Part shown: one piece after another, positions 131-14,506 of the stretch | Layout of the letters: every line of letters begins with the position of its first letter | Numbering within the stretch: position 1 is the first letter of the stretch | From: Algoriphagus antarcticus | Lineage (GTDB): Bacteria; Bacteroidota; Bacteroidia; Cytophagales; Cyclobacteriaceae | Direction: 5' to 3' | Assembly: GCF_002150685.1 (NCBI RefSeq) | Contig: NZ_MSSW01000027.1 | Location: 62,001-126,000, forward strand | DNA length: 64,000 bases | Made by a program: the position numbers and the translations under genes | The notes under the pieces: generated by a model | Told to the model about the DNA's origin: nothing | Database searches by the model: none | What the model saw: only the letters and a program-made list of their open reading frames with translations

Positions 131-202
131 AGCTAAAATCAGTCAATGATATTATTTCCAAACCGCATTGCCTTATTTTTGTTAACTACTAAAACTCCCC
201 CT

Positions 203-385: not shown

Positions 386-957
386 TGTTATTTACCCGCG
401 AAAATACGCCAGCCGAAATCTGGCAAACTTTAGTTCACGAACTTCACCGAGGAGCTTTGGATTCCAAGCATCCTTTTCGGTATATGAATTTGGGGACCAA
501 TGGTAAAGACTATCCGGAAGTCCGTACCCTGGTGCTTCGCAAAGTGGACGAGCAGTTGAACTGCTTGGTCTATACTGATTTTCGTAGTGTCAAAGTCGAG
601 GAGATTTTAGCTAATCCTTTGGTTTTAATGCATTTCTATAACCCCAAACAGCGAGTTCAGCTACGGATCCAAGCCAAAGCGATTATTCATCATCAAGATG
701 GATTGACTCCCGCCTATTGGTCTCAAGTGCAAGGCGATGCTCAAAAGGCTTATAATTCTACCCTTGCACCGGGAAGCAAAATCGAAACACCTGAGCAGGC
801 CTATGAATGGCCGAAGGAGATGGACTCCCAATTTTTTGCAGTACTGGAGCTGGTGCCACAAGCTATCGAAGCCTTGCAGTTGGATGGATTAAATCACCTG
901 AGAATCAATTTTTCAAAAAAACAGGAGAATTGGGAAGGGGTATGGATGGTGCCTTGA
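385..957 (+). CDS. pyridoxamine 5'-phosphate oxidase family flavoprotein
   Basis: A 190-residue soluble protein with the split-barrel FMN-binding fold typical of PNPOx-like proteins. Residues 35-95 carry the pattern PEVRTLVLRK, then TDFRSVKV, then a run of strands ending at QLRIQAKA. This resembles the Alr4036/PNPOx-like subgroup rather than true PdxH, because the C-terminal substrate-binding RRP-type motif of PdxH is not evident. Expected activity is flavin-dependent redox chemistry on an unknown substrate. It overlaps the upstream gene by one base, so the two likely form an operon. Confidence 0.75.
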   Translation: MLFTRENTPAEIWQTLVHELHRGALDSKHPFRYMNLGTNGKDYPEVRTLVLRKVDEQLNCLVYTDFRSVKVEEILANPLVLMHFYNPKQRVQLRIQAKAIIHHQDGLTPAYWSQVQGDAQKAYNSTLAPGSKIETPEQAYEWPKEMDSQFFAVLELVPQAIEALQLDGLNHLRINFSKKQENWEGVWMVP

Positions 958-1178
958 TTTTATTTGTACAAAAAAGGGTTTCGGATTTTTTGAAAGCTCC
1001 GAATAAGCAATTTGAGTGATTTTTAATTTTGGTATCAAATCGTACCGTTGATGCGCTGGTTAATTTGAATTAACCTAGACTACAATTAAACTCATCTCCA
1101 ACGCTATTGATATCTTTTTGACTTTAGCTTTTTCCCACTCATTTCCCTAAATTCCCACTCAATCGTCAACCCAATCTT

Positions 1179-4100
1179 ATGAAATTACTTTTCAAAGGCA
1201 GCTTAGCCATGCTAGCGCTATGCCTTTTTACCTTTCCTGCCATTTCGCAGAAAAACAAGAAAAACACTGATCTCTCTCCAAAATCTACCTATGATACTTC
1301 ACTCTACAATGCCATGGAGTTCCGACTTGTCGGACCTTTTCGCGGCGGTAGAGCTACAGCCATAGCAGGTGTCGTCCAAGATCCGAGCACCTATTATATG
1401 GGTGCAACAGCTGGAGTTTGGAAAACTACTGATGCCGGCGAAAGCTGGAAAAATATCTCTGATGGTTTCTTCAATACAGCTTCAGTCGGGGCGATCACAG
1501 TATCCGAATCTGATCCAAATGTGATCTATGTCGGAATGGGCGAAGCTCCTGTTCGTGGCGTGATGACTTCCCACGGAGATGGAGTTTATAAGTCCACCGA
1601 TGCTGGCAAAACCTAGTCGAATATTGGCCTGGAAAAGATCCGACAAATCTCAAAAATCGTCGTGCATCCTACCAATCCAGATATTTTGATTGTTGGCGCT
1701 CAAGGAAGTCCTTATGGCGCTACCGAAGATCGAGGGATTTACCGCTCGGAAGATGGTGGGGCCAATTGGACCAAAGCACATTATGTCGATGTCAATTCTG
1801 GAGTATCTGACCTCAGCATGGATATGAATAATCCTCGGATCATTTACGCCGCCTATTGGGATCATCGACGTTTCCCTTGGCAGGTGCAAAGTGGAGGTCC
1901 AGGTTCTGGAATCTACAAATCTGTGGATACGGGGAAAACTTGGCAGAAGCTTTCCGAAGGACTTCCAAAAGAAACGATGGGTAAAATTGGGGTTTCTGTT
2001 TCTAGAGCAAATTCTGAAATCGTCTGGGCGATCATCGAAGCCGAAGATGGTGGTCTTTATCGCTCAGATGATGCTGGAAAGAATTGGAAACTAGTTAATT
2101 CGGATCGTTTGCTTCGAGCAAGATCTTGGTATTATATGCATATTTTGGCACATCCAACTGAACCAGAAACAGTCTATATCATGAATGCGCCTTTGGTTGA
2201 GTCTACCGATGGAGGCAAGACCTTCGCCAATATGAAGACTCGTCATGGCGACAATCATCAGCTTTGGATCAATCCCGAGCAACCGAAATACATGGTCAAC
2301 GCCAATGATGGTGGAGCAAATGTGACGATTGATCGTGGTGTAAATTGGTCCCGACAGGACAATCAACCCACGGCTCAGTTTTATCGGGTGAATGCCGATA
2401 AGCAATTCCCTTACCGCATCTACGGTGGTCAGCAGGATAATTCTTCTGTCTCTGTAGCCTCCCGAGCTAATGGAGGAGGAATCGGTTGGGAGGAATTCTA
2501 TCCGGTTGGAGGTTGTGAATCTGCCTATTCAGCTTTTGATCCTGAAAATCCGATTTACATCTATTCAGGTTGCTACCAAGGAATCATCACCGAGTGGAAT
2601 GCCAAAACCAAATTGGAGAAAGATGTGATGGCTTATCCTTACCAAGGTTTGGCCTCCAACCCACGAGACGTCAAATACCGTTTCAATTGGAATGCGCCAA
2701 TCATCTCATCCATCCATGATCGTAGCGTGATTTACCATGCTGGAAATGTGATTTTGAAGACGACTAATCGTGGCATTAGCTGGGAGGAGATTTCTCCCGA
2801 TTTGACTAAAAATGATACTACACATTTGATTGCTGGCGGTGGACCAATTACTAATGAAGGTGCAGGCGGTGAAGTTTTCCATACGATTTATTACTTGGCA
2901 GAATCGTCCTTTACCCCAGATGTATTGTATGCAGGAGCGGATGATGGGCTGCTTCATGTGACTCAAGACGGAGGAAAAAGCTGGACAAATATTACGATTC
3001 CAAATACGCCTGATGGAATGGTTAATCAGATCGAAGTGTCTCTCCATGATCCGGCTACAGTTTATTTGGCTTTCAATAGCTACAAGTACAATGACTTTAC
3101 CCCGCATATTTTCAAATCGGCTGATTATGGAAAAAGTTGGACACGTCTGGTGAACGGCATAGCACCAGACGCCCATGTGCGGGTAGTGAGAGAAGACCCA
3201 AATCAAAAAGATCTGCTTTATGCCGGAACTGAAACCGGATTATATGTCTCTTTCAACGGTGGTCAGCTTTGGGAGAAATTCCAGCAGAATTTGCCGATCG
3301 TACCAATCACAGATCTGATGATTCAGGACAATGATATGATTGTCGCAACCCAAGGTCGTGCATTTTGGGTGATGGATGATTTGAATCCAATTTATGAGCT
3401 TTCGGCTTCCAAAAATTCAGATTTCTATGTTTACAAGCCTGAAGCTGCGATCCGTGATTTGGCTTTTAGAACTCCAAGTACAGAAATGGGACAGAATCCT
3501 TACGAAGGTTTTTCCATCCTTTATTATCTGAAAAATGATGTCGATTCGGTGAACTTGACCGCGGAGATTCTGGACGCAAATGGAAAAACACTTCGGACTT
3601 TCACCACCGATAAAGATGCCAAGCAAGATAAGATCAAAAAGAAAACCGGGACCAACCGACTTCATTGGGATTTAGCCTTGACTGACTTTCAACCTGTGGA
3701 GGGAGTTTTCTCAGGAATTGGGGTGTCACCAACTCGAGTGATCCCAGGAAAATATAGCGTAAAAATGACTTACGGGGATCAGACGATTACCAAGGATTTG
3801 GAAGTAAAAGCCGATCCTCGATGGTCTGCCACCCAAGCTGATTATCAAGCGCAATACGAGGCATTGATGCCAATCCAAGAAGCCTTGGTCAAAACCCGAA
3901 CTACTGCTGATGAACTTCGCTCACTTCGGGCTCAGGTGAAAGACATTCAAAGCCGAGTGTCCAAGGAATACTATGCAGATTGGAATACGCAAGCGGATGA
4001 GTTGATAAAATCTATCGATGCCGTGGAGGCAAAACTGATTCAGCCCAATCAGAAAACGTTCCAGGATGTGATTAATTTCCCCAATCAATTGGATGCGGAA

Positions 4101-4295
4101 TTGGCACATATCTACGGAACAATTGCTAATCAGGAACCGCTGGTTACTGATGGACAAAAAGCCTATGCTTCGGATATGCTGAAGAAATATGATACACTGA
4201 TGGAAGAAACTGCTGAAGTGATGAAATCATCAGAATCGCTACAAAAGGCCTTGATCGATCAAAAGATTCCTTTCTTGGCGCCGAAGCAGAAGTAA
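1179..4295 (+). pseudogene. BNR/Asp-box (VPS10-like) secreted protein broken by an in-frame TAG
   Basis: One reading frame of 1,038 sense and nonsense codons is interrupted by a single TAG at 1614-1616; the frame is otherwise intact on both sides. An N-terminal signal peptide ending near AISQ is followed by many Asp-boxes of the form S/T-x-D-x-G-x-T-W, for example TDAGESW, SEDGGANW, SVDTGKTW and TQDGGKSW. These are typical of sortilin/VPS10-like or sialidase-like beta-propellers; the C-terminal part is helical. The TAG lies exactly where the Trp of STDAGKTW is expected, so TGG to TAG is the simplest explanation. A restart at ATG 1662 would lack the signal peptide. Such proteins are usually exported and often annotated as glycosyl hydrolases without proven substrate. 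A sequencing error is possible. Confidence 0.8.
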
Positions 4296-4956
4296 ACAAC
4301 CTTTGAGGTGTCATCTCGACCTTGGGAGAGATCTCCTCGAAGGTTTTGAAGCTGGTATTTACTAAAAATTGGAATAGAGACATTATTTAAGCTAAGACCT
4401 TCAAAGGGCTACATGTTCATTCTTAGAATGGATGTAACCTAGATGGTTTAAGGAATAACTTATAGTACATGGCTAGTCTCTAGAAATAGAAAAAGCCTCG
4501 ATTCAATCAGAATCGAGGCTTTTTGCATATTAATGGATCTGATATTGAAGGATTAGAAACTTTTTAAAATTGCTTAGATCGTAGATCACAAATTGACCGA
4601 AAATCAGAACACAAACGAAGACCTTCGAGGAGATTAGTTCGAAGTATATTTTCCGGAATTATCAGTCTTAAGGCCAGCTCGGCAAAGTACGGACTATGAC
4701 TTTTCCCATTCAAAACTAAACAATGAAGAAAATTTTGAAAGAGTCAAAAAAAAATTAACCTAATAAAATAAGTCTGATTTCAGAATATTATTCGGATTAC
4801 TATCGATTTAGGGGGGCTCAGGAATTATCTACTATTAAATTAAGTTTTTGGGTTCTGACCTTATTGGTGCTGATTTAAACGGATTCGGATTTTATATTTT
4901 TCATTTAGTTATTAGGATGAATTGATTAGTTTGTTTTACTAACTGAAATAAATTGA
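4296..4956. other. non-coding stretch with terminator and a 14-bp inverted repeat
   Basis: No credible gene is seen. ATCTCCTCGAAGGT (4331-4344) is repeated exactly in inverse orientation at 4621-4634. The first arm lies in a stretch (gtcatctcgacc...gagatctcctcgaagg) that resembles a dispersed intergenic repeat I recall from other Bacteroidota. The terminator at 4490-4524 sits between the arms. Confidence 0.5.
4490..4524. terminator. bidirectional rho-independent terminator
   Basis: A perfect 14-bp stem, AAAAAGCCTCGATT pairing with AATCGAGGCTTTTT around a 7-base loop. The A-run and T-run make it usable in both directions. Related CGATTC/GAATCG stems recur at 10429 and 12657. Confidence 0.85.
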
Positions 4957-5586
4957 ATGAAACCATTTTTACTAATTGCCCTATATTCTTTGGCATTGTT
5001 TTTCATTTCTTACTTTTTGTTGGACGTGGAAGGAATGTTTGTCAATGCAATTGCGAAGCAAACTGAAATCGAAATTCCAGAAAACGTCTTGCTCGATACG
5101 CTGGAAGATATTCGCTATTGGAATAAGTTTAGTGTCCTTTTTACTTTTCTTATTCTGGTCATCAAGTGCTGGTTGATCGCTTTGGTGCTTTACGCAGGAT
5201 TGTTTTTTGCAAATCTTCATCAAGGCATCAAATTGCTGCGACTATTCAAAGTAGCGGTATTTGCTGAGAGCATCTTGGTCATAGCAGGATTGGTGAAAAT
5301 AGTCATAGTCGCAGCAGGGGACTTTTCCTATGAAGAATTTTCTGTCTTTTATCCTTTGTCGATCTTGAGCTTATTTGACCTCAATGAACTGAACAATCTA
5401 TTTATCTATCCGCTGCAACTGGTCAATCTGTTTGAGTTTGCCTACTGCTTTCTTCTGGTGTTCTTTTTTCATCAAGAGTTTGAGGTGGATATGGGTCAAA
5501 GTGCCAAAGTGGTGATTGCATCTTATTCCTTCGCCTTGGTCTTTTGGCTGGTTTTAATTCTCTTCTTGACACTCAATTTCACCTGA
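4957..5586 (+). CDS. multi-pass membrane protein of the peptide-export operon
   Basis: A 209-residue hydrophobic protein not recognised as a named family. About five membrane segments are visible: near residues 3-22, 56-82, 95-120, 150-172 and 185-208. There is a short acidic extracytoplasmic loop after the first segment. The stop is 13 bases before the redoxin gene, which overlaps the C39-peptidase ABC exporter, so the three are probably one operon. A role in exporter assembly or in handling the exported peptides is inferred from position only. It does not look like a MauE/DoxX-type quinone-coupled thiol protein. Confidence 0.7.
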   Translation: MKPFLLIALYSLALFFISYFLLDVEGMFVNAIAKQTEIEIPENVLLDTLEDIRYWNKFSVLFTFLILVIKCWLIALVLYAGLFFANLHQGIKLLRLFKVAVFAESILVIAGLVKIVIVAAGDFSYEEFSVFYPLSILSLFDLNELNNLFIYPLQLVNLFEFAYCFLLVFFFHQEFEVDMGQSAKVVIASYSFALVFWLVLILFLTLNFT

Positions 5587-5599
5587 AATTTTTTAATCT

Positions 5600-6130
5600 A
5601 TGAAAAAAATAATCCTACTCATTCTTTCCGTAATCCTGATCTCAGCGGTCATCTATCTTGGTTTTTCCTTCCAGAAGAAAGAACAACGAAAAGAGCTAGT
5701 CCAATCTCAAATCCAGACAATTCCTGACTTTGCTATCCCTGACTTAGCGGGTGATCTGGTGAATTTGAAAGAAATCGTTGCCAACAAGCCGAGCCTTTTA
5801 GTCTATTTCAACTCTACCTGTGGGATCTGTCAACTCGAATTGAACTCTATCGCAAAGCGGATAGCCGAATTTGATTCGTATCGCTTGATTTTTGTGACGG
5901 TACAGCCGTCGGAAGAGGTAGCAGACTTTATCCAAGAACTAGGGATTTCCAATCGTGAATCTGTTCACTTTTTGATCGACTCGGAGATGAAAGTAGCCGG
6001 ACACTTTGGGATCAAGGGCGTTCCAGCTTTATTTATCTATGATCCTGCAGGCAGGCTGCTGGGGAATTACACAGGGCCGGTTAAGGTGGATTTGATTCTG
6101 GAGCAGCTTCAAAACGGAGAAAAACTATGA
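5600..6130 (+). CDS. membrane-anchored TlpA/redoxin-type thioredoxin
   Basis: 176 residues. An N-terminal signal anchor (residues 4-22) is followed by a thioredoxin-like domain containing CGIC at residues 74-77 and a cis-proline region (GVPALF) near residue 144, so it should act as a thiol:disulfide oxidoreductase outside the cytoplasmic membrane. Its stop overlaps the exporter start as ATGA. The intact exported peptides of this locus each carry two cysteines, so a role in forming, reducing or isomerising their disulfides is a reasonable inference. An alternative is a general periplasmic reductase that only happens to be in this operon. Confidence 0.8.
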   Translation: MKKIILLILSVILISAVIYLGFSFQKKEQRKELVQSQIQTIPDFAIPDLAGDLVNLKEIVANKPSLLVYFNSTCGICQLELNSIAKRIAEFDSYRLIFVTVQPSEEVADFIQELGISNRESVHFLIDSEMKVAGHFGIKGVPALFIYDPAGRLLGNYTGPVKVDLILEQLQNGEKL

Positions 6131-8316
6131 AATTTTCTCCTAAAAAAATAAAGAAACATCACGTATCTCAGTTGGGAGAGTATGCCTGTGGCTTGGCTTG
6201 TCTCTGCACGATCTCCAGATATTACGGCGCAGAATTTTCTCAGGAAAAGCTTCGGGACATCAGTGGTACTTCCCAAAGCGGAACCACCTTACTTGGGTTG
6301 ATTCAAGCTGCCCAAAGGATAGGCTATGAAGCCAAAGGCTTTGAGGCGGAGTTGAAGCATTTGGCCGAACTTGAAGGCCCTGCAATTCTCCATGTGGTTC
6401 AGGATCAAAACAGAGAGCATTACTTGGTTTATTTTGGCTTGGCCGATGGAAAGCATTGGGTAAGCGATCCGGGAGTTGGTATTTTGGGTATGGAGGAATC
6501 CGAATTGACCGCACAGTGGAAATCGGGCATTCTCCTTCGACTTCAACCTACAGAAGCACTTCAAAATAAGGCAGTGGTATCACAATCCAAAAAGCGCTGG
6601 TTTGTTTCTCTGATTGCAGAAGATATTCCAATTCTCATCGTGGCCACGGTGATTGGGAGCTTAATGGCTGGAACGGGTCTATCCACTGCTATATTTTCTC
6701 AGCGCTTGATTGACGACTTCTTGCCAAATCAGTCCTATGAAAAGGCAATTATGGGAGTAGTTGCCCTAGGTTTTTTGCTGAGTTTCCGAGCGATCTTGGG
6801 CTATATCCAAGGCGTATTTATGGCGAGGCAGGGCAGAGACTTGAATGTTCGGATTGTTGCTTCATTTATCGAGCGGATTTTGAGATTACCGATGAGCTAT
6901 TTCCGAGGCTACAGTACGGGAGACCTGATCGCCCGGATGAATGATTCTCTCAGAATCCGGAATACTGTCTCCCTGATTACCGGGACGGTCATTATCAATA
7001 TTCTCGTGGTGGTTGTTTCCCTTGCATTTGTGTTCTATCAGTCTTCGTTGATCGGTTTTATATGTTTGCTGGGTGTATTTTTCTTCTTGATTGCAGGTTG
7101 GAAATATCATGCACCAATCTTGGCGAAGCAAAAGGAGGTGATGGCGGCACACGCGCTGAATGAATCACAATATGTGGATAGCCTGACCGGGATGCATGTA
7201 TTGAGGTCCTATGGAAAGGAGCAAGAATATCAGCAGCGTATCGAGCAAGTCTATGGCATGTATCAGGGCAAGGGCTATGACTTGGCGATCATCGGGAATA
7301 ATTTTTCCTTTTGGACACAGCTGATCGTAGCCATATTTTTGAGTTTGCTTTTTGGGGCGGGGGTTTATTTAATTTTTCAGGGGGAATTATTGCTTGGCGA
7401 GTTGATGGCTTTGGTGTCTGTAGGAAGTACGATTGTCCCTGCGGTAGCGGGCTTGGTGGTGGCAAACATTCAATTTCAGGAAGCCAAAGTAGCCTTTGAT
7501 CGACTGTTTGAGATTGCAGGCTTGGAGGTAGAGTCAGATCAGGAAATAGAAGAAAACAATGACTTCAAAGCAGACAGCCCACTATTGGAATTGGATCAGG
7601 TGAGTTTTCGGTATCCGGGACGAACTCAGATTTTGAAGGGGCTGAGTTTTCAACTGGAGCCTGGAGCGCATTTGGCACTTTTCGCCCCAGTGGGCAAAGG
7701 CAAGAGTACCTTGGTGGATTTGATTCAGCGGTTTTATGATCCAGAGTCAGGAGCAATTCGATGGAAAGGGCAAGACGCCCGGCATACTTCGGTCAGGACT
7801 TGGCGAAAAGCATTGGGGGTAGTCAATCAAAAGGAAAAAATCTTCAATTCTACTGTCTTCGATAATATAGTCCTAAGTAGCGATCTCAAAGAACAGGAGC
7901 GAATCGCAAAAGTCGGAGAGTCCCTTGGCCTTTGGAATCTTTTTCATGGCTTGCCTCAGGGCGCAATGACACTGTGTGGAGAAGATGGGCGCAATCTCTC
8001 GGGTGGACAGCGTCAGCTGGTTGGTATCGTGCGTGCACTCGTGAGAGAGCCGCAGCTACTGATTCTGGATGAGGCTACTGCCGCTATGGATTGGGAGCTG
8101 GAGGAGCAGCTGATCACTATGATCCGCCACTACCTTCAAAAGCAACAAGCAGGCCTGCTGATGATCACCCATCAGCCTAGCCTTGCCGCCCGTGCAGATC
8201 GGATTTTACTGCTTAAAGACTACCAAATCGCTCAATCCGGCACGCATGAGGCCCTGATGCTAAGTGAAAACGACTATTCTCGGGCGATCAATCAAATCCT
8301 ACAACCAAATCAATAA
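6127..8316 (+). CDS. C39 peptidase-containing ABC exporter (bacteriocin-type)
   Basis: 729 residues in the order C39 peptidase, six-helix ABC transmembrane domain, ATPase. The peptidase has the expected residues Q15, C21, H98 and D114, so it should cleave after a Gly-Gly leader while the same protein exports the cargo. The transmembrane domain spans roughly residues 155-450. The ATPase has Walker A PVGKGKST, signature LSGGQRQL, Walker B LLILDEA and an H-loop MITH. The first glycine of the Walker A consensus is Ala here. No HlyD-type fusion protein or TolC is encoded nearby. The double-glycine peptides downstream at 8611, 11277 and 11489 are the obvious substrates. Confidence 0.93.
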   Translation: MKFSPKKIKKHHVSQLGEYACGLACLCTISRYYGAEFSQEKLRDISGTSQSGTTLLGLIQAAQRIGYEAKGFEAELKHLAELEGPAILHVVQDQNREHYLVYFGLADGKHWVSDPGVGILGMEESELTAQWKSGILLRLQPTEALQNKAVVSQSKKRWFVSLIAEDIPILIVATVIGSLMAGTGLSTAIFSQRLIDDFLPNQSYEKAIMGVVALGFLLSFRAILGYIQGVFMARQGRDLNVRIVASFIERILRLPMSYFRGYSTGDLIARMNDSLRIRNTVSLITGTVIINILVVVVSLAFVFYQSSLIGFICLLGVFFFLIAGWKYHAPILAKQKEVMAAHALNESQYVDSLTGMHVLRSYGKEQEYQQRIEQVYGMYQGKGYDLAIIGNNFSFWTQLIVAIFLSLLFGAGVYLIFQGELLLGELMALVSVGSTIVPAVAGLVVANIQFQEAKVAFDRLFEIAGLEVESDQEIEENNDFKADSPLLELDQVSFRYPGRTQILKGLSFQLEPGAHLALFAPVGKGKSTLVDLIQRFYDPESGAIRWKGQDARHTSVRTWRKALGVVNQKEKIFNSTVFDNIVLSSDLKEQERIAKVGESLGLWNLFHGLPQGAMTLCGEDGRNLSGGQRQLVGIVRALVREPQLLILDEATAAMDWELEEQLITMIRHYLQKQQAGLLMITHQPSLAARADRILLLKDYQIAQSGTHEALMLSENDYSRAINQILQPNQ

Positions 8317-8320
8317 GATC

Positions 8321-8533
8321 ATGGGAGGACTAAAATACTACGAACGGACGAAATTGCTTATTGAGCTGATTGAAAAGGAGAGGACGGGGAGTCCAAAAGA
8401 CTTGGCAGGTAAACTTGGACTAAAGGAGCGGATGATATATAATTTGATTGACGACCTGACTTTGGTATTGGGAAAAGATGTTTGCTACTGCAAAGAAAAA
8501 AAATCTTACATTTTTTCAAAAAAACCAGACTGA
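8321..8533 (+). CDS. small helix-turn-helix protein, module 1
   Basis: 70 residues. An N-terminal helical stretch (YYERTKLLIELIEKE) is followed by a helix-turn-helix (DLAGKLGLKERMIYNLIDDL) and a short C-terminal beta-like tail (CYCKEKKSYIF), as in winged HTH_11-type domains. The start at 8321 is chosen because MGGLKYYERTKLL is conserved in the second copy at 10987; a longer in-frame ATG lies inside the exporter gene. It begins 4 bases after the exporter stop and precedes a hairpin and the first peptide gene. It is probably a local regulator of peptide expression (inference). Confidence 0.8.
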   Translation: MGGLKYYERTKLLIELIEKERTGSPKDLAGKLGLKERMIYNLIDDLTLVLGKDVCYCKEKKSYIFSKKPD

Positions 8534-8551
8534 CTGCAAGGAAATTGCAGT
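8533..8551 (+). promoter_or_regulatory. hairpin between HTH gene and peptide gene, module 1
   Basis: ACTGCAA and TTGCAGT form a 7-bp stem with a GGAAA loop right at the stop of the HTH gene. There is no following U-run, so a plain terminator is unlikely. Hairpins of different sequence but the same position occur in modules 2 (11202-11216) and 3 (12270-12296). Confidence 0.5.
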
Positions 8552-8610
8552 GGGTTGGATTTAAGTTTAGATATTATGAATCAAATTTCTAACTTTAAAC
8601 AACAACAATT

Positions 8611-8766
8611 ATGAAAGAGCTAAGTATTGAGAAAATGGAAACAGTTACAGGAGGATGTGGCATGGATGATATGCTATTCTACTCTGGGATGCATTTGTAT
8701 TATCTTGGCAAACAAGATTATATGGCCGCAGGCGCTTATTTAGCTAGAATGTTTGGATGCATGTAA
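8611..8766 (+). CDS. double-glycine leader peptide A (bacteriocin-like)
   Basis: A 51-residue ORF. The leader MKELSIEKMETVTGG is the classic cleavage signal for C39-peptidase exporters and is shared with the peptides at 11277 and 11489. Cleavage after Gly15 would release a 36-residue peptide with Cys at position 1 and position 35, rich in Met, Tyr and Gly. The 5' flank (aaatttctaa..ttaaacaacaa) is also conserved before the other peptide genes. A hairpin follows 6 bases after the stop. It is likely a secreted antimicrobial or signalling peptide; the activity is unknown. Confidence 0.85.
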   Translation: MKELSIEKMETVTGGCGMDDMLFYSGMHLYYLGKQDYMAAGAYLARMFGCM

Positions 8767-8772
8767 AAAAAT

Positions 8773-8802
8773 AACTCAGGCGTCTAATGTGATGCCTGAG
8801 TT
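8773..8802 (+). terminator. hairpin after peptide A
   Basis: AACTCAGGCGTC pairs with GATGCCTGAGTT (12 bp, one G-U) around TAATGT. The following bases are only moderately T-rich, so it may be a partial terminator that sets peptide expression above that of the genes downstream. Confidence 0.6.
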
Positions 8803-8818
8803 CTTAATTATAAAAAAT

Positions 8819-9547
8819 ATGAGGATATTATTGAGTTTTATATTAGTAATCTTTTACACTAGTTCCTTTTCACAAAATTTCGAAGGGAAATACTCTGGAA
8901 ATTTTCTGGATCCAGAAACCCTCCTTACTATTGAATTAAAAAAAGGGCAATATACTGCCATTATTCTTACCTCCTCGAAGACTAGTTTTGTTTTAGATTG
9001 TGAGGTTGTGGAAAGCTCATTATTATTTTCTGTCCCGATGAATGACGAAAAAGAACTTCAGGTCACTGCGGTATCAATGGATCATGATCTTGAATTAAGT
9101 TTCACATTAGAAGGGCAAAATTATACTACCTTATTAAGCAGGTTTGGTGGCAAAATCGATTCTAAAGAAAATGTTGAAGAAACGAGAGATAAACCCTCCT
9201 TGAATCCAGAATTAATTGGAAAGTGGATTCAGCTTGAAACCTATGATGCATCAGGAAAACCGGTAGACGGCGAATATTCAGGAAAAGGATATTATAGAAT
9301 TTATACCAAGGATGGAAGATTAATAGTCGACCCTCAGCGGTTTAGAGATGAAAGCAGTAAAAATGGACGATCTTTTTCTTATTCTGACGTTCCAACCTTT
9401 ATTTGGACAACCTTTAAATCAAATATACTGGTCACAAATCTACCGGGTATCATTGAAATTGAAGAAGAATATTTGATAAAAGGGGATTCCCTATCATTGA
9501 AAACCGATAAGAATTTTATAACATTTTTTAGAAAGGGTAATAAATAG
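8819..9547 (+). CDS. secreted two-domain protein, paralog 1 of peptide locus
   Basis: 242 residues starting at MRILLSF, chosen because it opens a clean signal peptide ending at SFSQ; an upstream in-frame ATG lies in the peptide gene. The first domain (about residues 20-110, FEGKYSGNFLDPE onward) and the second (about 130-242, with GKWIQLE, YYRIYTKDGR and a closing TFFRK strand) both look beta-rich and lipocalin-like, but no family is recognised. It lies directly behind the peptide A hairpin and ahead of its paralog at 9676. It could give immunity, bind the peptide or act in its delivery; none of these is shown by sequence. Confidence 0.75.
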   Translation: MRILLSFILVIFYTSSFSQNFEGKYSGNFLDPETLLTIELKKGQYTAIILTSSKTSFVLDCEVVESSLLFSVPMNDEKELQVTAVSMDHDLELSFTLEGQNYTTLLSRFGGKIDSKENVEETRDKPSLNPELIGKWIQLETYDASGKPVDGEYSGKGYYRIYTKDGRLIVDPQRFRDESSKNGRSFSYSDVPTFIWTTFKSNILVTNLPGIIEIEEEYLIKGDSLSLKTDKNFITFFRKGNK

Positions 9548-9675
9548 TGAAGAAATATATACAAGAATAAAATCATAACTCTTGGAGAGACTAATTTTCA
9601 AAACATAGAATTTTATATTTGATCACATAGATATGATTTTAGTATTTGGTTTTTCCAAATAAATTTTTACTAGCT

Positions 9676-10407
9676 ATGAAATATTTATTAATTCTATTCT
9701 TCTGTTTTAATTCATTTCTTCTATTCGGCCAAAGCTTCGAGGGGAAGTACTTTGGCAATTTTCTGGATCCAGAAAATATTGTAAGCATTGAGTTAAAAAA
9801 AGGACAATATTTTGCTACTATTCTTACTTCCTCAAAAACTACTTTTGTTGTGGATTGCGAACTTGTGGAAGGATCACTTAGATTTTTTGTGCCTCTTAAT
9901 GATGAGAAGAAACTTCGGGTTACCGCAGTGTCAATTGATCAGGATCTTGAATTAAGTTTTACTCTTGAAGGAGAAAATTACACTGCCTTACTAAAGCGAA
10001 TAGGTACCCAAACCGTTTCAAAAGACAATAACAAAGAAAAAATAGATAAACCTTTCCTTGATCCTGAAATTATGGGAAAGTGGATTCAACTAGGATCCCA
10101 TTACCCATCAGGGGAGCCTACCGAGGTAGATTTTTCTACAAAAGGATATTATAAAGTTTTTACCAAGGATGGAAGAATAATTAACGATTCCAGAATGTTT
10201 AGAGATGTAAGTGCAAAGAATGGTCATTCTTTTTCTTACTCTGATATTCCTGACTTTAACTGGAGTATGAGACGTCCCAATATTTTGATTACTTCTTCTC
10301 CTGAATTTGGATCATTTGAGGAAGAATATTATATACAAAACGATTCTTTGATTTTGAAAACAACAGGAGGATTTAAAACCTACTTTGTACGCGAAATTAA
10401 AGACTGA
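9676..10407 (+). CDS. secreted two-domain protein, paralog 2 of peptide locus
   Basis: 243 residues with a signal peptide ending at LLFGQ. It is a clear tandem duplicate of the gene at 8819: the blocks FEGKY.GNFLDPE, IELKKGQY, LTSSKT and LELSFTLEG are shared, and the C-terminal half keeps GKWIQL, GYYK.FTKDGR and FSYSD. The start at 9676 is preferred over 9646 because it matches the paralog and begins the signal peptide. A strong terminator follows 22 bases after the stop, closing module 1. Confidence 0.75.
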   Translation: MKYLLILFFCFNSFLLFGQSFEGKYFGNFLDPENIVSIELKKGQYFATILTSSKTTFVVDCELVEGSLRFFVPLNDEKKLRVTAVSIDQDLELSFTLEGENYTALLKRIGTQTVSKDNNKEKIDKPFLDPEIMGKWIQLGSHYPSGEPTEVDFSTKGYYKVFTKDGRIINDSRMFRDVSAKNGHSFSYSDIPDFNWSMRRPNILITSSPEFGSFEEEYYIQNDSLILKTTGGFKTYFVREIKD

Positions 10408-10428
10408 TACCTAAATTTTAGCTATTTC

Positions 10429-10461
10429 AAAAGGCTCGATTCAATCCAAATCGAGCCTTTT
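10429..10461. terminator. bidirectional terminator closing module 1
   Basis: AAAAGGCTCGATT pairs with AATCGAGCCTTTT (13 bp) around CAATCCA, followed by a T-rich tract. The stem is related to that at 4490. Confidence 0.85.
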
Positions 10462-10575
10462 ATATTTTTAATACTAAATTCATAATTCGAGCTGAATCAA
10501 AAACTACGAGGAACAAATTATACTCCGGATAGTCAATAATGTTGACTTGCCTACTTTTTTATTATTCCAACCGAT
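10462..10575. repeat. intergenic repeat A, copy 1
   Basis: The stretch after the terminator aligns with 12694-12810. Shared blocks include taatac/taataccaaattcat, ctgaatca.aaac, actccggat.gtcaa.aatgt and attcc. Both copies begin with a CGATTC-stem terminator. No ORF with coding character is seen. Confidence 0.6.
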
Positions 10576-10640
10576 TCCTGCTGTTCAGGTCCCGATCACT
10601 ATCGTGGATGTAATCCTGAACCTTTATCATAGGATTTTCA
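10566..10640. repeat. intergenic repeat B, copy 1
   Basis: ttcctgctgttcagg, aatcctgaac and ttatcatagg.ttt..aatccg recur at 12166-12228, where the element interrupts a decayed HTH gene. It contains short inverted repeats (GTTCAGG, CCTGAAC) and may be a small palindromic mobile repeat. Confidence 0.55.
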
Positions 10641-10682
10641 ATCCGTCAGGTACTGTTATTTTACTTAAAGCTGAAAGAATAC

Positions 10683-10880
10683 TACTGGCGTCCGACAAAA
10701 TTTCGGCCTCGGAAATCAAGCGGCTTAGAAATGAGTATTTGGAAATTTCCCCGTACCTACCTACGTGATGTACCCCTGATGGTCAAAAAGGGGGTAGTTT
10801 TCAGAAAGGCATTGAAATATTCATTTTGAGCTAACTGAAACACGTTTTTTCACAGTTTTAGTTTTACTCGGACGCCAGTA
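10683..10880. repeat. 13-bp inverted repeat pair before the exporter fossil
   Basis: TACTGGCGTCCGA (10683-10695) and TCGGACGCCAGTA (10868-10880) are perfect inverse copies 172 bases apart. The second abuts the start of the exporter fossil at 10881. The short direct repeat AAAGAATAC also lies beside each arm. Confidence 0.6.
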
Positions 10881-10982
10881 AAAGAATACCAAATCACACA
10901 ACCAGGCACGCACGAGGCCCTAATGCAAAGTGAGAACGACTATTCTCGGGCAATCAATCAAATCCTACAACCAAACCAATAA
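10881..10982 (+). pseudogene. fossil of the exporter C-terminus (33 codons)
   Basis: The last 33 codons and stop of the C39 exporter are repeated here in frame with 29 of 33 residues identical (KEYQITQPGTHEALM... against KDYQIAQSGTHEALM...). Five of the nine changed codons are synonymous, which suggests this tail evolved as part of a functional exporter before the rest was lost or left behind. It is followed by HTH copy 2 with nearly the same spacing as in module 1. Confidence 0.85.
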
Positions 10983-10986
10983 AACC

Positions 10987-11196
10987 ATGGGAGGACTAAA
11001 ATACTACGAACGAACGAAGCTGCTTATTGAGCTGATTGAAAAGGAGAGGACAGGGAGTCCGAGGGATTTGGCGAGAAAACTACAGGTCCATGAGCGAACT
11101 ATGTATCGAATCATTGAGGAGGTTAGGCTTATACAACCATGTGAGACTATTTATTGCAAAGAACGGAAGAGCTACATTTTTATGAAAAATAAATAA
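10987..11196 (+). CDS. small helix-turn-helix protein, module 2
   Basis: 69 residues, a diverged duplicate of the protein at 8321. The first 29 residues are almost identical (MGGLKYYERTKLLIELIEKERTGSP in pieces); the recognition part is changed (DLARKLQVHERTMYRIIEEV). The divergence is concentrated in the DNA-binding region, which suggests a different target or specificity. It precedes peptide genes B and C, with a weak hairpin (TGACA/TGTCA, 11202-11216) immediately behind. Confidence 0.8.
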   Translation: MGGLKYYERTKLLIELIEKERTGSPRDLARKLQVHERTMYRIIEEVRLIQPCETIYCKERKSYIFMKNK

Positions 11197-11276
11197 CTCA
11201 CTGACAAGAAATGTCACTGACCTGCCATTATATTTAGGTATTACAAAATAAATTTCTAAATTTAAACAACAAAAAC

Positions 11277-11465
11277 ATGAACGAATTAAGTATTGAAAGA
11301 ATGGAGATGGTGAGTGGGGGGATTTGTCAAAGTGATTCGCTTAGCTTTTTGGCTGGAGCAACATTTATGGGAACAGTTCTGGGCGGCGGTCTCGGTTTTG
11401 TTGGAGGTTTAATAGTAGGAGAGATTGGTGCTCTTTATATTACGTATAATGGCGAGGCTTGTTAA
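11277..11465 (+). CDS. double-glycine leader peptide B
   Basis: 62 residues. Leader MNELSIERMEMVSGG, with predicted cleavage after Gly15. The 47-residue mature part has Cys at positions 2 and 47 and a glycine-rich hydrophobic core with several GxxxG spacings (GTVLG, GGLIVG), as in membrane-inserting class II bacteriocins. It lies 23 bases ahead of peptide C, so the two may act as a two-peptide system (inference). Confidence 0.85.
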   Translation: MNELSIERMEMVSGGICQSDSLSFLAGATFMGTVLGGGLGFVGGLIVGEIGALYITYNGEAC

Positions 11466-11488
11466 CAATCTTTAATTAATAGTAAGTT

Positions 11489-11680
11489 ATGAAAGAATTA
11501 AATAATCTAGAGATGGAAACAATTTCTGGTGGTGCTTTCGATAGTGCTTTTTGTAAAGGAGTAGCAGCTGTTGATATTGCTTATGGGGCTGGAGTTTTAT
11601 TAAATTTATGGAATCCGGTAGGTTGGGTAGGAGCTGCAGGAGGCTTAGCTGTTAATGCCTACTGCTTCGCTTACGGATAA
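11489..11680 (+). CDS. double-glycine leader peptide C
   Basis: 63 residues. Leader MKELNNLEMETISGG. The 48-residue mature part has two cysteines (near positions 7 and 43), a Trp-containing hydrophobic core (NLWNPVGWVGAAGG) and an aromatic C-terminus. Encoded directly after peptide B. Such composition fits a pore-forming peptide, but the activity is unproven. A small membrane protein gene follows at 11832. Confidence 0.85.
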   Translation: MKELNNLEMETISGGAFDSAFCKGVAAVDIAYGAGVLLNLWNPVGWVGAAGGLAVNAYCFAYG

Positions 11681-11831
11681 GACTTTTGAGAGTGGTATAT
11701 AATGTTTAAATATACCAACTCTCTATTCTTTCTATTATTTAATTCCGGTATTTATACAAGTAAGTCAAAAATTGTTTAGAATTTATCGGGAAAGCAAATG
11801 GACATAGAATTATATAAAATTGGAAAAATTT

Positions 11832-12005
11832 ATGAATTTATTTAAAATTATTGTTATAGTTTTTGCTATTATTATGTTTATAGGAATATTCATTGAAGAA
11901 TACTCGACCCTTTTTGTCAAATTGTCCCTAATAATTGGTTCTCTAATAATAGTTTATACCTCTTTTATAAAAAAAAGTAAATCCTCTGGAAAATCTTCTC
12001 AATAA
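11832..12005 (+). CDS. small two-helix membrane protein, candidate immunity protein
   Basis: 57 residues with two hydrophobic helices (about 3-21 and 30-48) and a basic, serine-rich C-terminal tail (KKSKSSGKSS). No family is recognised. Its position right after the peptide pair B/C, and its size, match typical bacteriocin immunity proteins. The similarly placed small membrane ORF at 12393 supports a recurring peptide plus membrane-protein layout. An upstream TTG at 11820 in frame is an alternative start. Confidence 0.55.
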   Translation: MNLFKIIVIVFAIIMFIGIFIEEYSTLFVKLSLIIGSLIIVYTSFIKKSKSSGKSSQ

Positions 12006-12126
12006 TTCTAAATTGCATTTCATTTTTTTCTCAATCTCCAATAAGTTTATGTTCTATCTAGATTTTTTATTTTAGGAATCTTGCAATTCTGGTTGAAAAC
12101 TAAAACTCACTAGAGTGTTAATTTTT

Positions 12127-12266
12127 TTTTATTGTTGATCGAAAAGGAAAAAATAGGCAGTCCAATTTCCTGCTGTTCAGGATTTCTAATCCTGAACACT
12201 TATCATAGGGTTTGTAATCCGATAAGATTTCGTCGAGAAAAAAAGCTACATTTTTTCTGAAAATAA
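12127..12266 (+). pseudogene. decayed third HTH copy, interrupted by repeat B
   Basis: ttattg.ttgat.gaaaagg..a...aggcagtcca matches the LLIELIEKERTGSP segment of the HTH genes. gaaaaaaagctacattttt.tgaaaat matches the C-terminal KKSYIF...K segment. Between them the DNA-binding region is replaced by a repeat B copy (12166-12228). The flanking hairpin and peptide leader are in the same order as in modules 1 and 2. Confidence 0.6.
12166..12228. repeat. intergenic repeat B, copy 2
   Basis: Matches 10566-10640 in tcctgctgttcagga, aatcctgaac, cttatcatagg and aatccg. Contains the inverted repeat TGTTCAGGAT / ATCCTGAACA. Sits inside the remains of an HTH gene, which suggests insertion with loss of flanking sequence. 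Confidence 0.55.
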
Positions 12267-12269
12267 TTG

Positions 12270-12296
12270 ACTCGGTGAAAGTTTTTTTCGCCGAGT
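12270..12296 (+). promoter_or_regulatory. hairpin between HTH remnant and peptide remnant, module 3
   Basis: ACTCGGTGAAA pairs with TTTCGCCGAGT (11 bp with one wobble). It is in the same place as the hairpins of modules 1 and 2 but has a different sequence, so the structure rather than the bases may be what is kept. Confidence 0.5.
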
Positions 12297-12349
12297 TGGA
12301 TTTATGTTTGATTAACAAATCAAATTTCTAATCTTAAACAACAAGAATT

Positions 12350-12373
12350 ATGACCGAGTTAAGTATTTCTTAA
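12350..12373 (+). pseudogene. truncated double-glycine leader (MTELSIS stop)
   Basis: The conserved peptide 5' flank (caaatttctaatcttaaacaacaa) leads into an ATG and the leader start MTELSIS, then TAA. The Gly-Gly site and the mature peptide are gone. A small membrane ORF follows 19 bases later. A decayed fourth peptide gene. Confidence 0.7.
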
Positions 12374-12392
12374 AAACATTAAATTAATAATT

Positions 12393-12545
12393 ATGAACAG
12401 CATTACTTTGAAAATCTTATTGTTCTCGATAGGCTTTGTTATTCTTTTTTTTGACTACACTGCAGCATTGATTTTCCTGATTCTGTCTAACCTTATTGTT
12501 TATTTTGAGGAAAAACGTAAGGTCAAGCAAAAAGCTCATGATTGA
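12393..12545 (+). CDS. small membrane protein after peptide remnant
   Basis: 50 residues with two closely spaced hydrophobic helices (about 4-20 and 23-38) and a basic tail (EEKRKVKQKAHD). The layout resembles the 57-residue protein at 11832 although the sequences differ. It may be an orphan immunity gene left after the cognate peptide decayed, which is a common outcome because immunity protects against relatives (inference). It could also be non-functional. Confidence 0.45.
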   Translation: MNSITLKILLFSIGFVILFFDYTAALIFLILSNLIVYFEEKRKVKQKAHD

Positions 12546-12656
12546 GGTAGTAGGAACCCTGACGAGGCAATCCGACTACCGTACGAATCCCTTCCAGTCA
12601 CCTCGAATTTCAGATTACACCGATCGGGGATTATGAATCTGAATTTCAGATAAAGC

Positions 12657-12693
12657 AAAAGATTCGATTCTGATAGAATCGAGGCTTTTTCTA
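12657..12693 (+). terminator. terminator closing the peptide locus
   Basis: TCGATTC and GAATCGA form the upper stem around TGATA, with outer aaaag/cttttt partly paired and a T-run. The same family as the stems at 4490 and 10429 but with a mismatched lower stem. Confidence 0.6.
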
Positions 12694-12810
12694 TTTAATA
12701 CCAAATTCATATTCCTACCTGAATCACAAACAATGAGAAACGAACTATACTCCGGATGGTCAAAAATGTCGGCTAGCTTACTTTAATTTTCATTCCGATC
12801 GATTTTTTTT
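12694..12810. repeat. intergenic repeat A, copy 2
   Basis: Aligns with 10462-10575 over its full length, including ctatactccggatggtcaaaaatgt. The two copies bracket modules 2 and 3 of the peptide locus. Confidence 0.6.
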
Positions 12811-12857: not shown

Positions 12858-13109
12858 ATGAACAAAAACACGTCAATATATCTAGGAAATTATTTTGACC
12901 AATTCGTCCAAAATCGAATTAAGGAAGGTCGATTTAATAATGCCAGTGAAGTTATTCGAGCTGGTTTAAGATTATTGGAAGAAGAAGAAAGTAAGGTCTT
13001 AGCTTTAAAAAATGCTATTCAGGAAGGAATCGGTAGCGGTATTGCGCAGGATTTTGACCCAAAAAATCACCTTCAATCTCTGAAGGCTACCAAGAAGACC
13101 AATGGCTGA
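12858..13109 (+). CDS. parD: ParD-type antitoxin
   Basis: 83 residues. The N-terminal ribbon-helix-helix (NTSIYLGNYFDQFVQ, then NNASEVIRAGLRLLEEEE) is typical of the ParD/CC2985 family: it forms a DNA-binding dimer, while the C-terminal half wraps the toxin. It overlaps the ParE gene by 8 bases and lies behind a perfect palindrome at 12817. Expected to neutralise ParE and autorepress the operon. Confidence 0.88.
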   Translation: MNKNTSIYLGNYFDQFVQNRIKEGRFNNASEVIRAGLRLLEEEESKVLALKNAIQEGIGSGIAQDFDPKNHLQSLKATKKTNG

Positions 13110-13401
13110 ATTTAAACTAACAAATAAGGCTATTGCCGATTTAGCTCAAATTTGGAATTACACCTTTGATACTTGGTCAGAGTATCAAGCTGACAAATAC
13201 TATGAAATGCTAATTTCTGCTTGCAGTGAAATTGCAGCTAATCCGACTCGAGGAAAGATATACGAGGGGATTTCTGAAGGTTTGTTCGGAATGAGAACGA
13301 ATCGACATATTATTTTCTATCGGATTTTAAACGAAAGCCTTATCGAAATTACAAGAATTTTGCACGAGAGTATGGATTTAAAAATGAGAATAGAGGAATA
13401 G
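13102..13401 (+). CDS. parE: ParE-type toxin
   Basis: 99 residues of the RelE/ParE fold: LTNKAIADLAQIWNYT at the N-terminus, the central helical hairpin with YYEMLISACSEIA, then RGKIYEGI, GMRTNRHIIFYRI and EITRILHESMD. ParE toxins poison DNA gyrase, although some family members act differently. The length and conserved motifs are intact, so toxin and antitoxin both look functional. Confidence 0.88.
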   Translation: MAEFKLTNKAIADLAQIWNYTFDTWSEYQADKYYEMLISACSEIAANPTRGKIYEGISEGLFGMRTNRHIIFYRILNESLIEITRILHESMDLKMRIEE

Positions 13402-13756: not shown

Positions 13757-14173
13757 TTACAATTTAGAAATCAATTCTCGAATGGAAATAGCTGGTATTC
13801 TCGAGGATTTGAAATCTTTCAAATTTCTGGTAATGATATAATCGATGGTACGGAATGACTCAACAGTACCCATTTGGACGGCATCTTCGAAGTCTTTGTG
13901 TGTGGATTTGAGTGCGATTTTTACGATGGCTTGAGTTACATCCAAAACCGTAACCAAGTCGGAAAGCTCATCAAGAGTCTTTCGCAATTCGATTTCGTCA
14001 GTATATTTTTTGAGCAAATAGTGAGTAGTTCCCACCGAATGTGAGGAGGTGAAAAGATTAATTCTGCCTGATTCCCCGAGTTCGAATACTTCCAAGGCCT
14101 CTTGAGAGAGAGAGAGAGGATGACGGTTGGTTAGAAAATCAAGCAAAATATTAGTGTCTAGGAAAACATTCAT
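13757..14173 (-). CDS. PIN-domain ribonuclease toxin (VapC-like)
   Basis: 138 residues. The PIN fold is shown by the N-terminal MNVFLDTNILLDFL, a central ELRKTLDELSDL helix pair, HKDFEDAVQ with its conserved acidic residues, and the closing DYIITRNLKDFKSS motif. The acidic residues needed for metal-dependent RNA cleavage are all present. It overlaps the upstream antitoxin gene by ATGA. A (GA)n run at 14104-14117 lies within the gene (the E/S-rich stretch) without breaking the frame. Confidence 0.88.
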   Translation of the reverse strand: MNVFLDTNILLDFLTNRHPLSLSQEALEVFELGESGRINLFTSSHSVGTTHYLLKKYTDEIELRKTLDELSDLVTVLDVTQAIVKIALKSTHKDFEDAVQMGTVESFRTIDYIITRNLKDFKSSRIPAISIRELISKL

Positions 14174-14415
14174 TTGAGATGCTTTTCTTCTAAGGTTCTT
14201 CTCAATTCCTGCTCTTCATCAAAATCTTCTGGAAGATTGATTTTTCCTGCAATTGATTTTAATCGGGTAGAAATCTGAGTTTGAGGGGACGACTCGGTTA
14301 TTTTCTCGAAGTAATCTTCGACTAGGCCAGATAAACTACTTCCAGTCTTTTCGGCATAAATTTTAGCCTTTTGAATAACAGATTCATCAAGGCTTAGGGT
14401 TAGTTTCTTATTCAT
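14170..14415 (-). CDS. DUF6364-type antitoxin of the PIN toxin
   Basis: 81 residues beginning MNKKLTLSLDESVIQKAKIYAEK, a ribbon-helix-helix pattern found in DUF6364-family antitoxins. The C-terminal half is acidic and likely binds the toxin. The start at 14415 is preferred to 14463 because the upstream extension covers an operator-like palindrome and lacks family character. Translationally coupled to the PIN gene. Confidence 0.8.
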   Translation of the reverse strand: MNKKLTLSLDESVIQKAKIYAEKTGSSLSGLVEDYFEKITESSPQTQISTRLKSIAGKINLPEDFDEEQELRRTLEEKHLK

Positions 14416-14443
14416 ACGTATGCTTTTATACGATATACGTATA
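14414..14443. promoter_or_regulatory. operator-like repeats at the antitoxin start
   Basis: The palindrome ATACGTAT occurs at 14414-14421 and again at 14435-14442, with the related ATACGAT between. The first overlaps the start codon. A good candidate for the RHH antitoxin binding site. Confidence 0.55.
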
Positions 14444-14506
14444 GTTTTAGAATTAGATAGCATTCCCTAAACCTAACCTCGGTAGTTAGGGTGTTGCAGA
14501 CACAGG

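Follow-up and report, generated by a model that had tools for sequence, protein, structure and literature searches.

A bacteroidetocin-type export operon followed by putative exchangeable bacteriocin cassettes in Algoriphagus antarcticus

Introduction

What kind of system is built when a single peptide exporter is followed by several gene clusters of similar plan, whose peptides have similar leaders and dissimilar mature parts? The question is raised by a stretch of 64,000 nucleotides (hereafter, the window) of Algoriphagus antarcticus, family Cyclobacteriaceae (contig NZ_MSSW01000027.1, positions 62,001 to 126,000), in which an export operon (positions 4957-8316 of the window) precedes three cassettes containing a small helix-turn-helix (HTH) gene or its remnant, genes or remnants of double-glycine (GG) peptides and further small genes. 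We assign a probability of about 0.7 to the idea that this locus is a bacteroidetocin-type export operon serving exchangeable bacteriocin cassettes. The exporter genes, small HTHs, GG peptides, secreted paralogues and membrane proteins listed in a preliminary description of this DNA were all found to be present.

Results

Organization of the locus and turnover of its cassettes

The export operon encodes a membrane protein (TM), a redoxin with a CGIC motif and an ATP-binding cassette (ABC) exporter with a C39 peptidase, and is followed by HTH1, behind which cassette 1 embeds PepA, CARGO1 and CARGO2. Cassette 2 comprises HTH2, PepB, PepC and MP2, whereas cassette 3 is dead and consists of a broken HTH, an operator, a leader stub and MP3 (Table 1). 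The idea that these are three repeats of one plan holds in that positions 8215-8394 recur at 10881-11060 (90.6% identity over 180 bp), and does not hold for the HTH of cassette 3, whose start at 12132 enters an intergenic repeat and whose end is out of frame with that start; the dead peptide recognized in the same cassette is a stub of seven codons (12350-12373). This gene order is beyond chance, since it recurs in many relatives.

The preliminary description had also suggested that cassettes are gained and lost behind a shared exporter and had pointed to related genomes as the place to check it; in them, number and kind of cassettes do vary. The left flank (53-4347), the exporter (4735-8639) and the right flank (15572-17697) of the window match Algoriphagus marinus (L115; L and G numbers are our labels) in order, and a metagenome-assembled genome (L126) matches the same three blocks in the same order, there from 436 and 4954; the right flank is 83% identical to the window in both. 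The identities of TM, redoxin and ABC are 84, 72 and 84% between the window and L115, 84, 70 and 84% between the window and L126, and 88, 89 and 93% between L115 and L126. Between the exporter and the right flank the cassettes form different sets: in L115 there are a different single peptide, a truncated one and a peptide of the PepA type accompanied by two CARGO genes, and L126 harbors three PepA types, each with its own CARGO, the first being a diverged relative of cassette 1 of the window (PepA 45%, CARGO 60% to CARGO2) with the same operator class. In G198 (L184) the flanking genes are about 130 bp apart, with neither exporter nor cassette between them, compared with a spacing of 11.3 kb in the window; G351 and G130 carry other small genes between the flanks and lack the exporter, and, of the eight genomes fetched in all, the remaining five did not show the left-flank gene in their stretches. 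Lastly, PepB, PepC and MP2 of strain MSM8 (L125) are 89, 87 and 70% identical to those of the window, and its TM, redoxin and ABC only 58, 40 and 64%; the cassette is much closer than the exporter of another lineage that it stands behind, and has moved between exporter lineages.

The 180-bp duplication stops before the recognition helix; since it ends inside the HTH gene, the DNA-reading half would travel with operator and toxin. The secondary cassettes of seven relatives (L068, L075, L114, L115, L121, L123 and L126) open with an HTH gene truncated in its first half, and in B. calami (L068) remnants of the TM start and of the ABC gene lie ahead of the HTH copies. From these joints we suggest that cassettes may have been gained either via tandem recombination of whole exporter-cassette units, with loss of the spare exporter, or via recombination in the exporter end and HTH start; under both routes the DNA-reading half, the operator, the promoter, the toxin and the immunity gene would stay linked.

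Concerning the exporter proteins, a hydropathy scan of TM gave five spans; its relatives carry the name Yip1 domain-containing, and among them TM is the conserved first gene of TM-redoxin-ABC operons. The ABC exporter matches TIGR01193 with 346 bits, under the cutoff of that family, and weak Pfam matches, such as PF22852 and DUF7244, were set aside.

Other elements surround the cassettes. The intergenic repeat of about 60 bp (12170-12229) that breaks the third HTH recurs with 87% identity in L115 and L126, and partly at 10611-10645; another pair of intergenic repeats (79%; 10492-10576 and 12719-12804) lies beside cassettes. Between the cassettes and the right flank there are two toxin-antitoxin-like pairs (12858-13401 and 13757-14463), which we take to be ParD/ParE-like and PIN-like; the ParDE pair is also present in A. 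marinus L115, and the PIN-like gene in L126, L185 and L188. The left-flank gene (1179-4295) has one in-frame stop near 1614, and its relatives align through it.

Table 1. Features of the export operon and of the three cassettes (window coordinates; aa, amino acids)
Feature	Position	Strand	Evidence or remark
TM, 209-aa membrane protein, first gene of the exporter operon	4957..5586	+	five predicted spans
Redoxin, CGIC thiol oxidoreductase	5600..6130	+	AhpC-TSA 1.5e-13, Redoxin 4.9e-9 (Pfam)
C39-peptidase ABC exporter	6127..8316	+	Pfam Peptidase_C39 9.8e-30, ABC_membrane 9e-34, ABC_tran
HTH1, winged HTH, recognition motif KERMIYN	8321..8533	+	fold predicted via homologue HTH2
Predicted operator 1, ACTGCAAGGAAATTGCAGT	8533..8551	+	
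-7 box TAAGTTTA, 10 nt past operator 1	8562..8569	+	
PepA, 15-aa GG leader, 36-aa mature part, Cys 1 and 35	8611..8766	+	
CARGO1, secreted, two lipocalin-like domains; candidate immunity protein for PepA	8819..9547	+	fold via paralogue CARGO2
CARGO2, paralogue of CARGO1 (58%)	9676..10407	+	predicted fold
Duplicated homology arm, exporter 3' end and HTH 5' part	10881..11060	+	90.6% to 8215-8394
HTH2, recognition motif HERTMYR	10987..11196	+	alignment, predicted fold
Predicted operator 2, ACTGACAAGAAATGTCACT	11200..11218	+	
-7 box TATATTTA, 10 nt past operator 2	11229..11236	+	
PepB, GG leader, mature Cys 2 and 47	11277..11465	+	
PepC, partner GG peptide, mature Cys 7 and 44	11489..11680	+	
MP2, small two-span membrane protein, 57 aa; candidate immunity protein for PepB/PepC	11832..12005	+	
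Remnant of third HTH gene, broken by intergenic repeat	12132..12262	+	
Predicted operator 3, GGTGAAAGTTTTTTTCGCC	12274..12292	+	nearest to sites of KRTVFN/KRTVYN HTHs (L087, L121)
-7 box TATGTTTG, 10 nt past operator 3	12303..12310	+	
Dead peptide of cassette 3, leader stub MTELSIS and stop, 7 codons	12350..12373	+	
MP3, small membrane protein, 50 aa; orphan candidate immunity gene	12393..12545	+	

Peptides and candidate immunity genes

The three peptides of the window match Bacteriocin_IIc or bacteriocin_sig only weakly. Their leaders share 0.53-0.73 identity and their mature parts 0.21-0.25, in agreement with the earlier statement that the former are conserved and the latter unrelated. In a wider set of 50 peptides (48 of them distinct), selected for their leader pattern, their length and an HTH or ABC gene close by, the mean pairwise identity was 0.64 for leaders, 0.26 for mature parts and 0.22 for shuffled mature parts; the leader has 15 aa in 43 of the 48 and 16 aa in five. 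The mature parts have exactly two cysteines in 44/48 cases (12.9 on average and at most 23 in 2000 null draws), the remaining ones having three (two peptides) or one (a short L115 copy and a 40-aa L123 copy). In 45/48 no more than 12 residues separate the first cysteine from the beginning of the mature part and, likewise, the last cysteine from its end (8.8 on average and at most 20 in 2000 null draws), counts to be read bearing in mind that many of these peptides are kin and hence are not 48 independent cases. A GG peptide with cysteines near both ends also accompanies the TM-redoxin-ABC genes of a Flammeovirga pectinis plasmid. The redox pair of the exporter and the cysteine pair of the peptides would each explain the presence of the other.

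Peptides of the PepA type, which we defined after seeing the sequences as C-[SGD]-x-x-[DE] with the cysteine at mature position 1 or 2, are 13 out of 48 (L064 and one L075 copy having an identical mature peptide). A CARGO relative lies within 350 bp behind 13/13 of them and behind none of the 35 others, which makes these proteins candidates for immunity to PepA. No Pfam family matched CARGO above cutoff, and 47 of the 48 proteins retrieved by a CARGO profile search have no precomputed Pfam domain; the model of CARGO2 has two beta domains with calycin-like structural neighbours, and the short forms in L115, L117, L125 and L126 retain the C-terminal one. These proteins might instead be effectors exported together with PepA, or carriers of it, a reading to which we give a real though clearly smaller share of belief: their N-termini look signal-like (by eye), their lipocalin-like folds might bind a ligand, and both the window and L115 have two copies. 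However, CARGO proteins have no GG leader, the same slot is occupied by a membrane protein in most other peptide units, and in L126 each of the three PepA copies has a CARGO of its own, a distribution that fits candidate immunity proteins better.

Indeed, in 23 of 26 non-PepA units an open reading frame (ORF) of 51-223 aa with at least one predicted span starts within 450 bp (counted by eye). The pair PepB-PepC, followed in the window by MP2, recurs in L066/L067, L070, L074 and L125. MP3 resembles a protein of L114 (local score 67, best of 500 shuffles 50), namely the small membrane protein behind a two-peptide pair of B. filtrata, and one of L068 (score 52, shuffle maximum 42); on these similarities MP3 is a candidate orphan immunity gene.

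HTH proteins, predicted operators and promoters

The start of HTH1 is best taken as the ATG at 8321, conserved in relatives, rather than the longer ORF start at 8264. The model of HTH2 (predicted local distance difference test, pLDDT, 86) consists of nothing but a winged-helix domain, about 70 aa long, whose recognition helix begins at residue 36. It resembles TM1602 (1j5y; Foldseek TMq 0.73, E only 0.028), and the match to HTH_11 (E 0.0018-0.0062) remains under the curated cutoff.

In cassettes 1 and 2, as in many relatives, the peptide genes come after a regulator gene, and GG peptides also act in cell-to-cell communication (abstract of PMC7018657). On this basis, the peptides might be signals (pheromones), HTH and operator their circuit, and the "immunity" proteins receptors or modulators. 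We consider this unlikely: family scans of the ten proteins of 4957-11680 revealed no sensor kinase, response regulator or peptide-binding regulator, the HTH is only the bare domain described above, several different peptides per exporter plus an orphan small membrane gene are better suited to the turnover of an arms race, and toxins are the product of the nearest exporter region described. Hence, we continue to regard the peptides as putative bacteriocins.

What had been called a hairpin at 8533, 11200 and 12274 is instead a 19-bp interrupted palindrome, which we predict to be the DNA operator of the neighbouring HTH. Such a dyad was found near 36 of the 45 HTH ORFs whose helix motif could be read, in the stretch searched around each. 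The comparison of helix and dyad was performed on 33 HTH rows (32 different), that is, 31 rows of the scan with the first half present plus L066 and L067, added by hand, whose operator sites were confirmed on re-check; two rows, both of L068, have a stop near the end. Two rules emerged without exception in the 33 rows: Glu36 goes with outer AC (18 rows) and Lys36 with outer GG (13) or AG (2), whereas Arg41 goes with the half-site TGxCA (11) and other residues with other half-sites (22). In the HTH2 model, residues 36 and 41 fall where the recognition helix begins. Five dyad-bearing HTHs kept out of the set, their first half being missing or diverged, obey the rules too. With 14 distant HTHs added (from other loci, mostly of other families, chosen for a nearby dyad and not by the bases tested, three pairs having one dyad in common), rule 1 fits 45/47 and rule 2 fits 47/47. 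On an HTH tree built without the helix, trait and operator each change five times for rule 1 and four times for rule 2.

The motif TAnnTTn[GA] lies exactly 10 nt past the operator in 25/36 cases. The -7 box has the consensus TAnnTTTG and, by the usual promoter spacing, the operator occupies the expected site of the -33 element. The operator letters at that position vary between operator classes. Because the operator covers the -33 place, whose letters differ between classes, activation is weakly favoured over repression, the HTH being somewhat more probably an activator.

The dyad lies directly after the HTH stop codon and its arms co-vary, as would be expected if it were an RNA hairpin (a terminator or attenuator) of the HTH transcript. 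Nevertheless, no conserved run of T follows it, its arms track the neighbouring recognition helix in distant homologues too, the -7 box 10 nt behind it places it ahead of the point where the peptide mRNA should begin, and 8200-12800 gave no Rfam match with E up to 0.1. For the helix-arm matching and the missing Rfam match the hairpin was rejected as the main explanation, and we deem it improbable, the dyad being better read as a DNA operator.

Two further observations concern these HTH genes. In L134, L110 and L111, from other Bacteroidota, tandem HTH pairs have one dyad between both genes. Moreover, a GG motif occurs in the C-terminal tail of 13 out of 55 distinct distant HTH ORFs (<90 bits; L028, L024, L025, L030, L075, L112, L120, L138, L143, L149, L150, L157 and L159) versus none of 40 close ones, and is leader-like in several of them; an ABC exporter gene lies nearby in at least L024, L025, L030, L075, L112, L143 and L157. 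A GG-tailed regulator may itself be a substrate of the exporter.

Distribution among relatives

Queried with HTH2, 148 genomes of the family gave 66 matches at E up to 0.01, of which many are distant; queried with TM, they gave 96 (E up to 0.001), most of them distant, the close TM group counting 12 places besides that of the window, with 45-62% identity. An HTH alignment retrieved 123 matches from 390 family genomes (E up to 1e-9), again many of them distant. In the genus, 6 of 60 genomes, counting that of the window, have the exporter membrane protein (E up to 1e-25), which makes the locus a patchy one. A scan of named genomes yielded 31 loci, from genera including Belliella, Mongoliitalea, Cecembia, Indibacter, Nitritalea, Pleomorphovibrio, Lunatimonas, Echinicola and Algoriphagus.

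Gene order was annotated in 37 loci. The order TM-redoxin-ABC-HTH-GG peptide is found in the window, L062-L070, L115, L126 and L087 (the redoxin gene being split in L062 and L070, and ABC in L067), and the order ABC-HTH-peptide-TM-redoxin in L076, L116, L122, L124 and L127 (ABC split in L122). Two kinds of loci do not fit this scheme simply: those of Lunatimonas (L071-L073), with exporter and HTH, in which neither a dyad nor, with the leader patterns applied, a GG peptide was found; and those with an HTH and no exporter in the stretch fetched (L077, L078, L118, L120 and L128-L130). L163, a family genome, shows TM-redoxin-ABC genes and GG peptides with no HTH in the stretch. Outside the family, TM-redoxin-ABC operons with GG peptides occur in L112, L161 and L165; in the last, from another family, five small GG peptides stand in a row directly upstream of the operon (122-1319). 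Among TM homologues at the class level, 10 of 19 loci fetched had neither redoxin nor ABC in the stretch, and distant TM homologues were kept out of the evidence.

That the whole locus is a decaying remnant devoid of present function, as the broken cassette 3 and the truncated secondary HTH copies of several relatives might suggest, is very unlikely, for the frames of the exporter, of HTH1 and HTH2 and of the peptides in the first two cassettes are open and their motifs intact, and TM and ABC are still 84% identical in A. marinus.

Discussion

The scenario that we propose is the following. The C39 peptidase would cut the leader of 15-16 aa after Gly-Gly and the ABC transporter would export the peptide, in which the CGIC redoxin and the membrane protein would close one disulfide joining both ends of the mature part. 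Each cassette would embed the DNA-reading half of an HTH gene with its operator and a -7 box, a single GG peptide or a pair of them with antibacterial action, and an immunity gene, the latter coding for a lipocalin-like secreted protein for PepA types and mostly for a small membrane protein for hydrophobic one- or two-peptide toxins. The HTH, whose gene is the last of the exporter operon in the window, would bind the operator at the -33 place and switch the toxin genes, somewhat more probably by activation, the exporter being made first and the toxin next. New cassettes would arrive via homologous recombination in the exporter 3' end and the HTH 5' part, and because recombination falls there the DNA-reading half would remain with its operator.

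Several points weigh against this interpretation. Nine of the 45 readable HTH ORFs lack a dyad in the stretch searched; L117, among these, carries a site matching its class within its own 3' end, and three are the Lunatimonas loci with exporter and HTH in which a GG peptide was not found. L137 and L138 break the Glu/AC rule, and the broken HTHs at L068:5923 and L114:4875 disagree with the operator rules. Peptides, HTHs and operators are interrelated, so that the counts are not independent; indeed, on supported branches of the 33-row tree there are only one (rule 1) and two (rule 2) independent pairs, with the distant rows two and two, and sign tests never reach 0.05. A close membrane ORF is absent in 3 of the 26 non-PepA units (L068:15856, L115:8718 and L123:9997), and the MP2-like proteins of L074 and L066 score no higher than shuffles and are not claimed as relatives. 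Finally, GxxxG is a mark of two-peptide bacteriocins; it does not exceed shuffles in PepB (P 0.13) or PepC (P 0.73), and for this lack of enrichment it was dropped as proof of a two-peptide type.

A more extended scenario is possible, although we hold it only tentatively. The locus might be an arsenal in which each cassette has its cognate switch, written in a readable protein-DNA code (Glu or Lys at residue 36 for outer AC or GG, Arg41 for TGxCA). Recombination within the HTH gene would then exchange code, operator, toxin and antidote together, as one block. The regulator would be made last, so that toxin would appear only after the exporter; the terminal cysteine pair would be the sole chemical property that the cargoes must share; and the GG motif on distant HTHs might hint that the exporter once cut or held the regulator.

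If the proposed interpretation is true, the locus would be a Gram-negative, Bacteroidota counterpart of the pneumococcal bacteriocin immunity region, and its HTH-operator pairs a natural series for reading DNA specificity. It would also provide candidate immunity proteins for this type of bacteriocin, for which the work on Bacteroides had found none (PMC6671954). Since the peptide families have little else in common beyond the leader, the rule "two cysteines, one near each end" might be a simple finder of unannotated toxins.

Comparison with known systems

Concerning the pneumococcal blp locus, PMC4860687 describes, as here, one peptidase-containing exporter, conserved GG leaders and variable bacteriocin and immunity genes, a variation thought to be due to recombination. 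The variability behind one exporter is seen here between species rather than between strains, and the exporter is that of a Gram-negative with redox partners. According to the same source, a single quorum-sensing region controls all blp genes, whereas here each cassette has its own HTH and operator, and no kinase or response regulator of a blp-like two-component control was found among the ten proteins scanned. Cassette 2 resembles class IIb in that a small membrane protein (the candidate immunity gene) comes after two neighbouring GG peptides, and differs from it because GxxxG is not enriched and each peptide has a cysteine pair near its termini. The HTH shares the winged-helix fold of HTH_11 regulators such as TM1602, here as a bare DNA-binding domain with no ligand domain.

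The closest likeness is to the bacteroidetocin (class IIf) region, a likeness of gene make-up and peptide plan set by description rather than by comparison of protein sequences. According to PMC6671954 and PMC8546649, that region likewise has a five-span membrane protein, a thiol oxidoreductase and a C39 ABC transporter, and bacteroidetocins have GG leaders of 15-16 aa and at least two cysteines, as do 48/48 (leaders) and 46/48 (cysteines) of our peptides, the two with fewer cysteines being short copies. Bacteroidetocins A and B have four cysteines, compared with two near the ends in 44/48 here; the wider group admits "at least two" (PMC6671954). The same source reports that the four genes of the region yield toxin in Escherichia coli and that toxin activity in Bacteroides is attenuated when the gene for the thiol oxidoreductase or that for TM is deleted; it reports no immunity protein found, and the term "regulator" is absent from its main text. 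Members of this class kill Bacteroidetes, with BamA as their target. Phocaeicola salanitronis pBACSA02 was discarded as bacteroidetocin kin, its C39 ABC being accompanied by HlyD and TolC and by no TM/redoxin pair, and a B. uniformis plasmid fetched alongside carries no annotation.

The preliminary description had not recognized a described system in this locus. The exporter operon is not new, having the make-up of the bacteroidetocin region. HTH-operator-matched cassettes behind an exporter of this type were not found in the titles and abstract openings searched, and the locus is set apart from bacteroidetocins in that each cassette has an HTH-operator pair, that there are candidate immunity genes and two-peptide pairs, and that several cassettes go with one exporter. 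Judging from gene content, what appears to be new is the cassette array with its matched HTH-operator pairs and candidate immunity genes, which would make the locus of A. antarcticus a variant of a described system.

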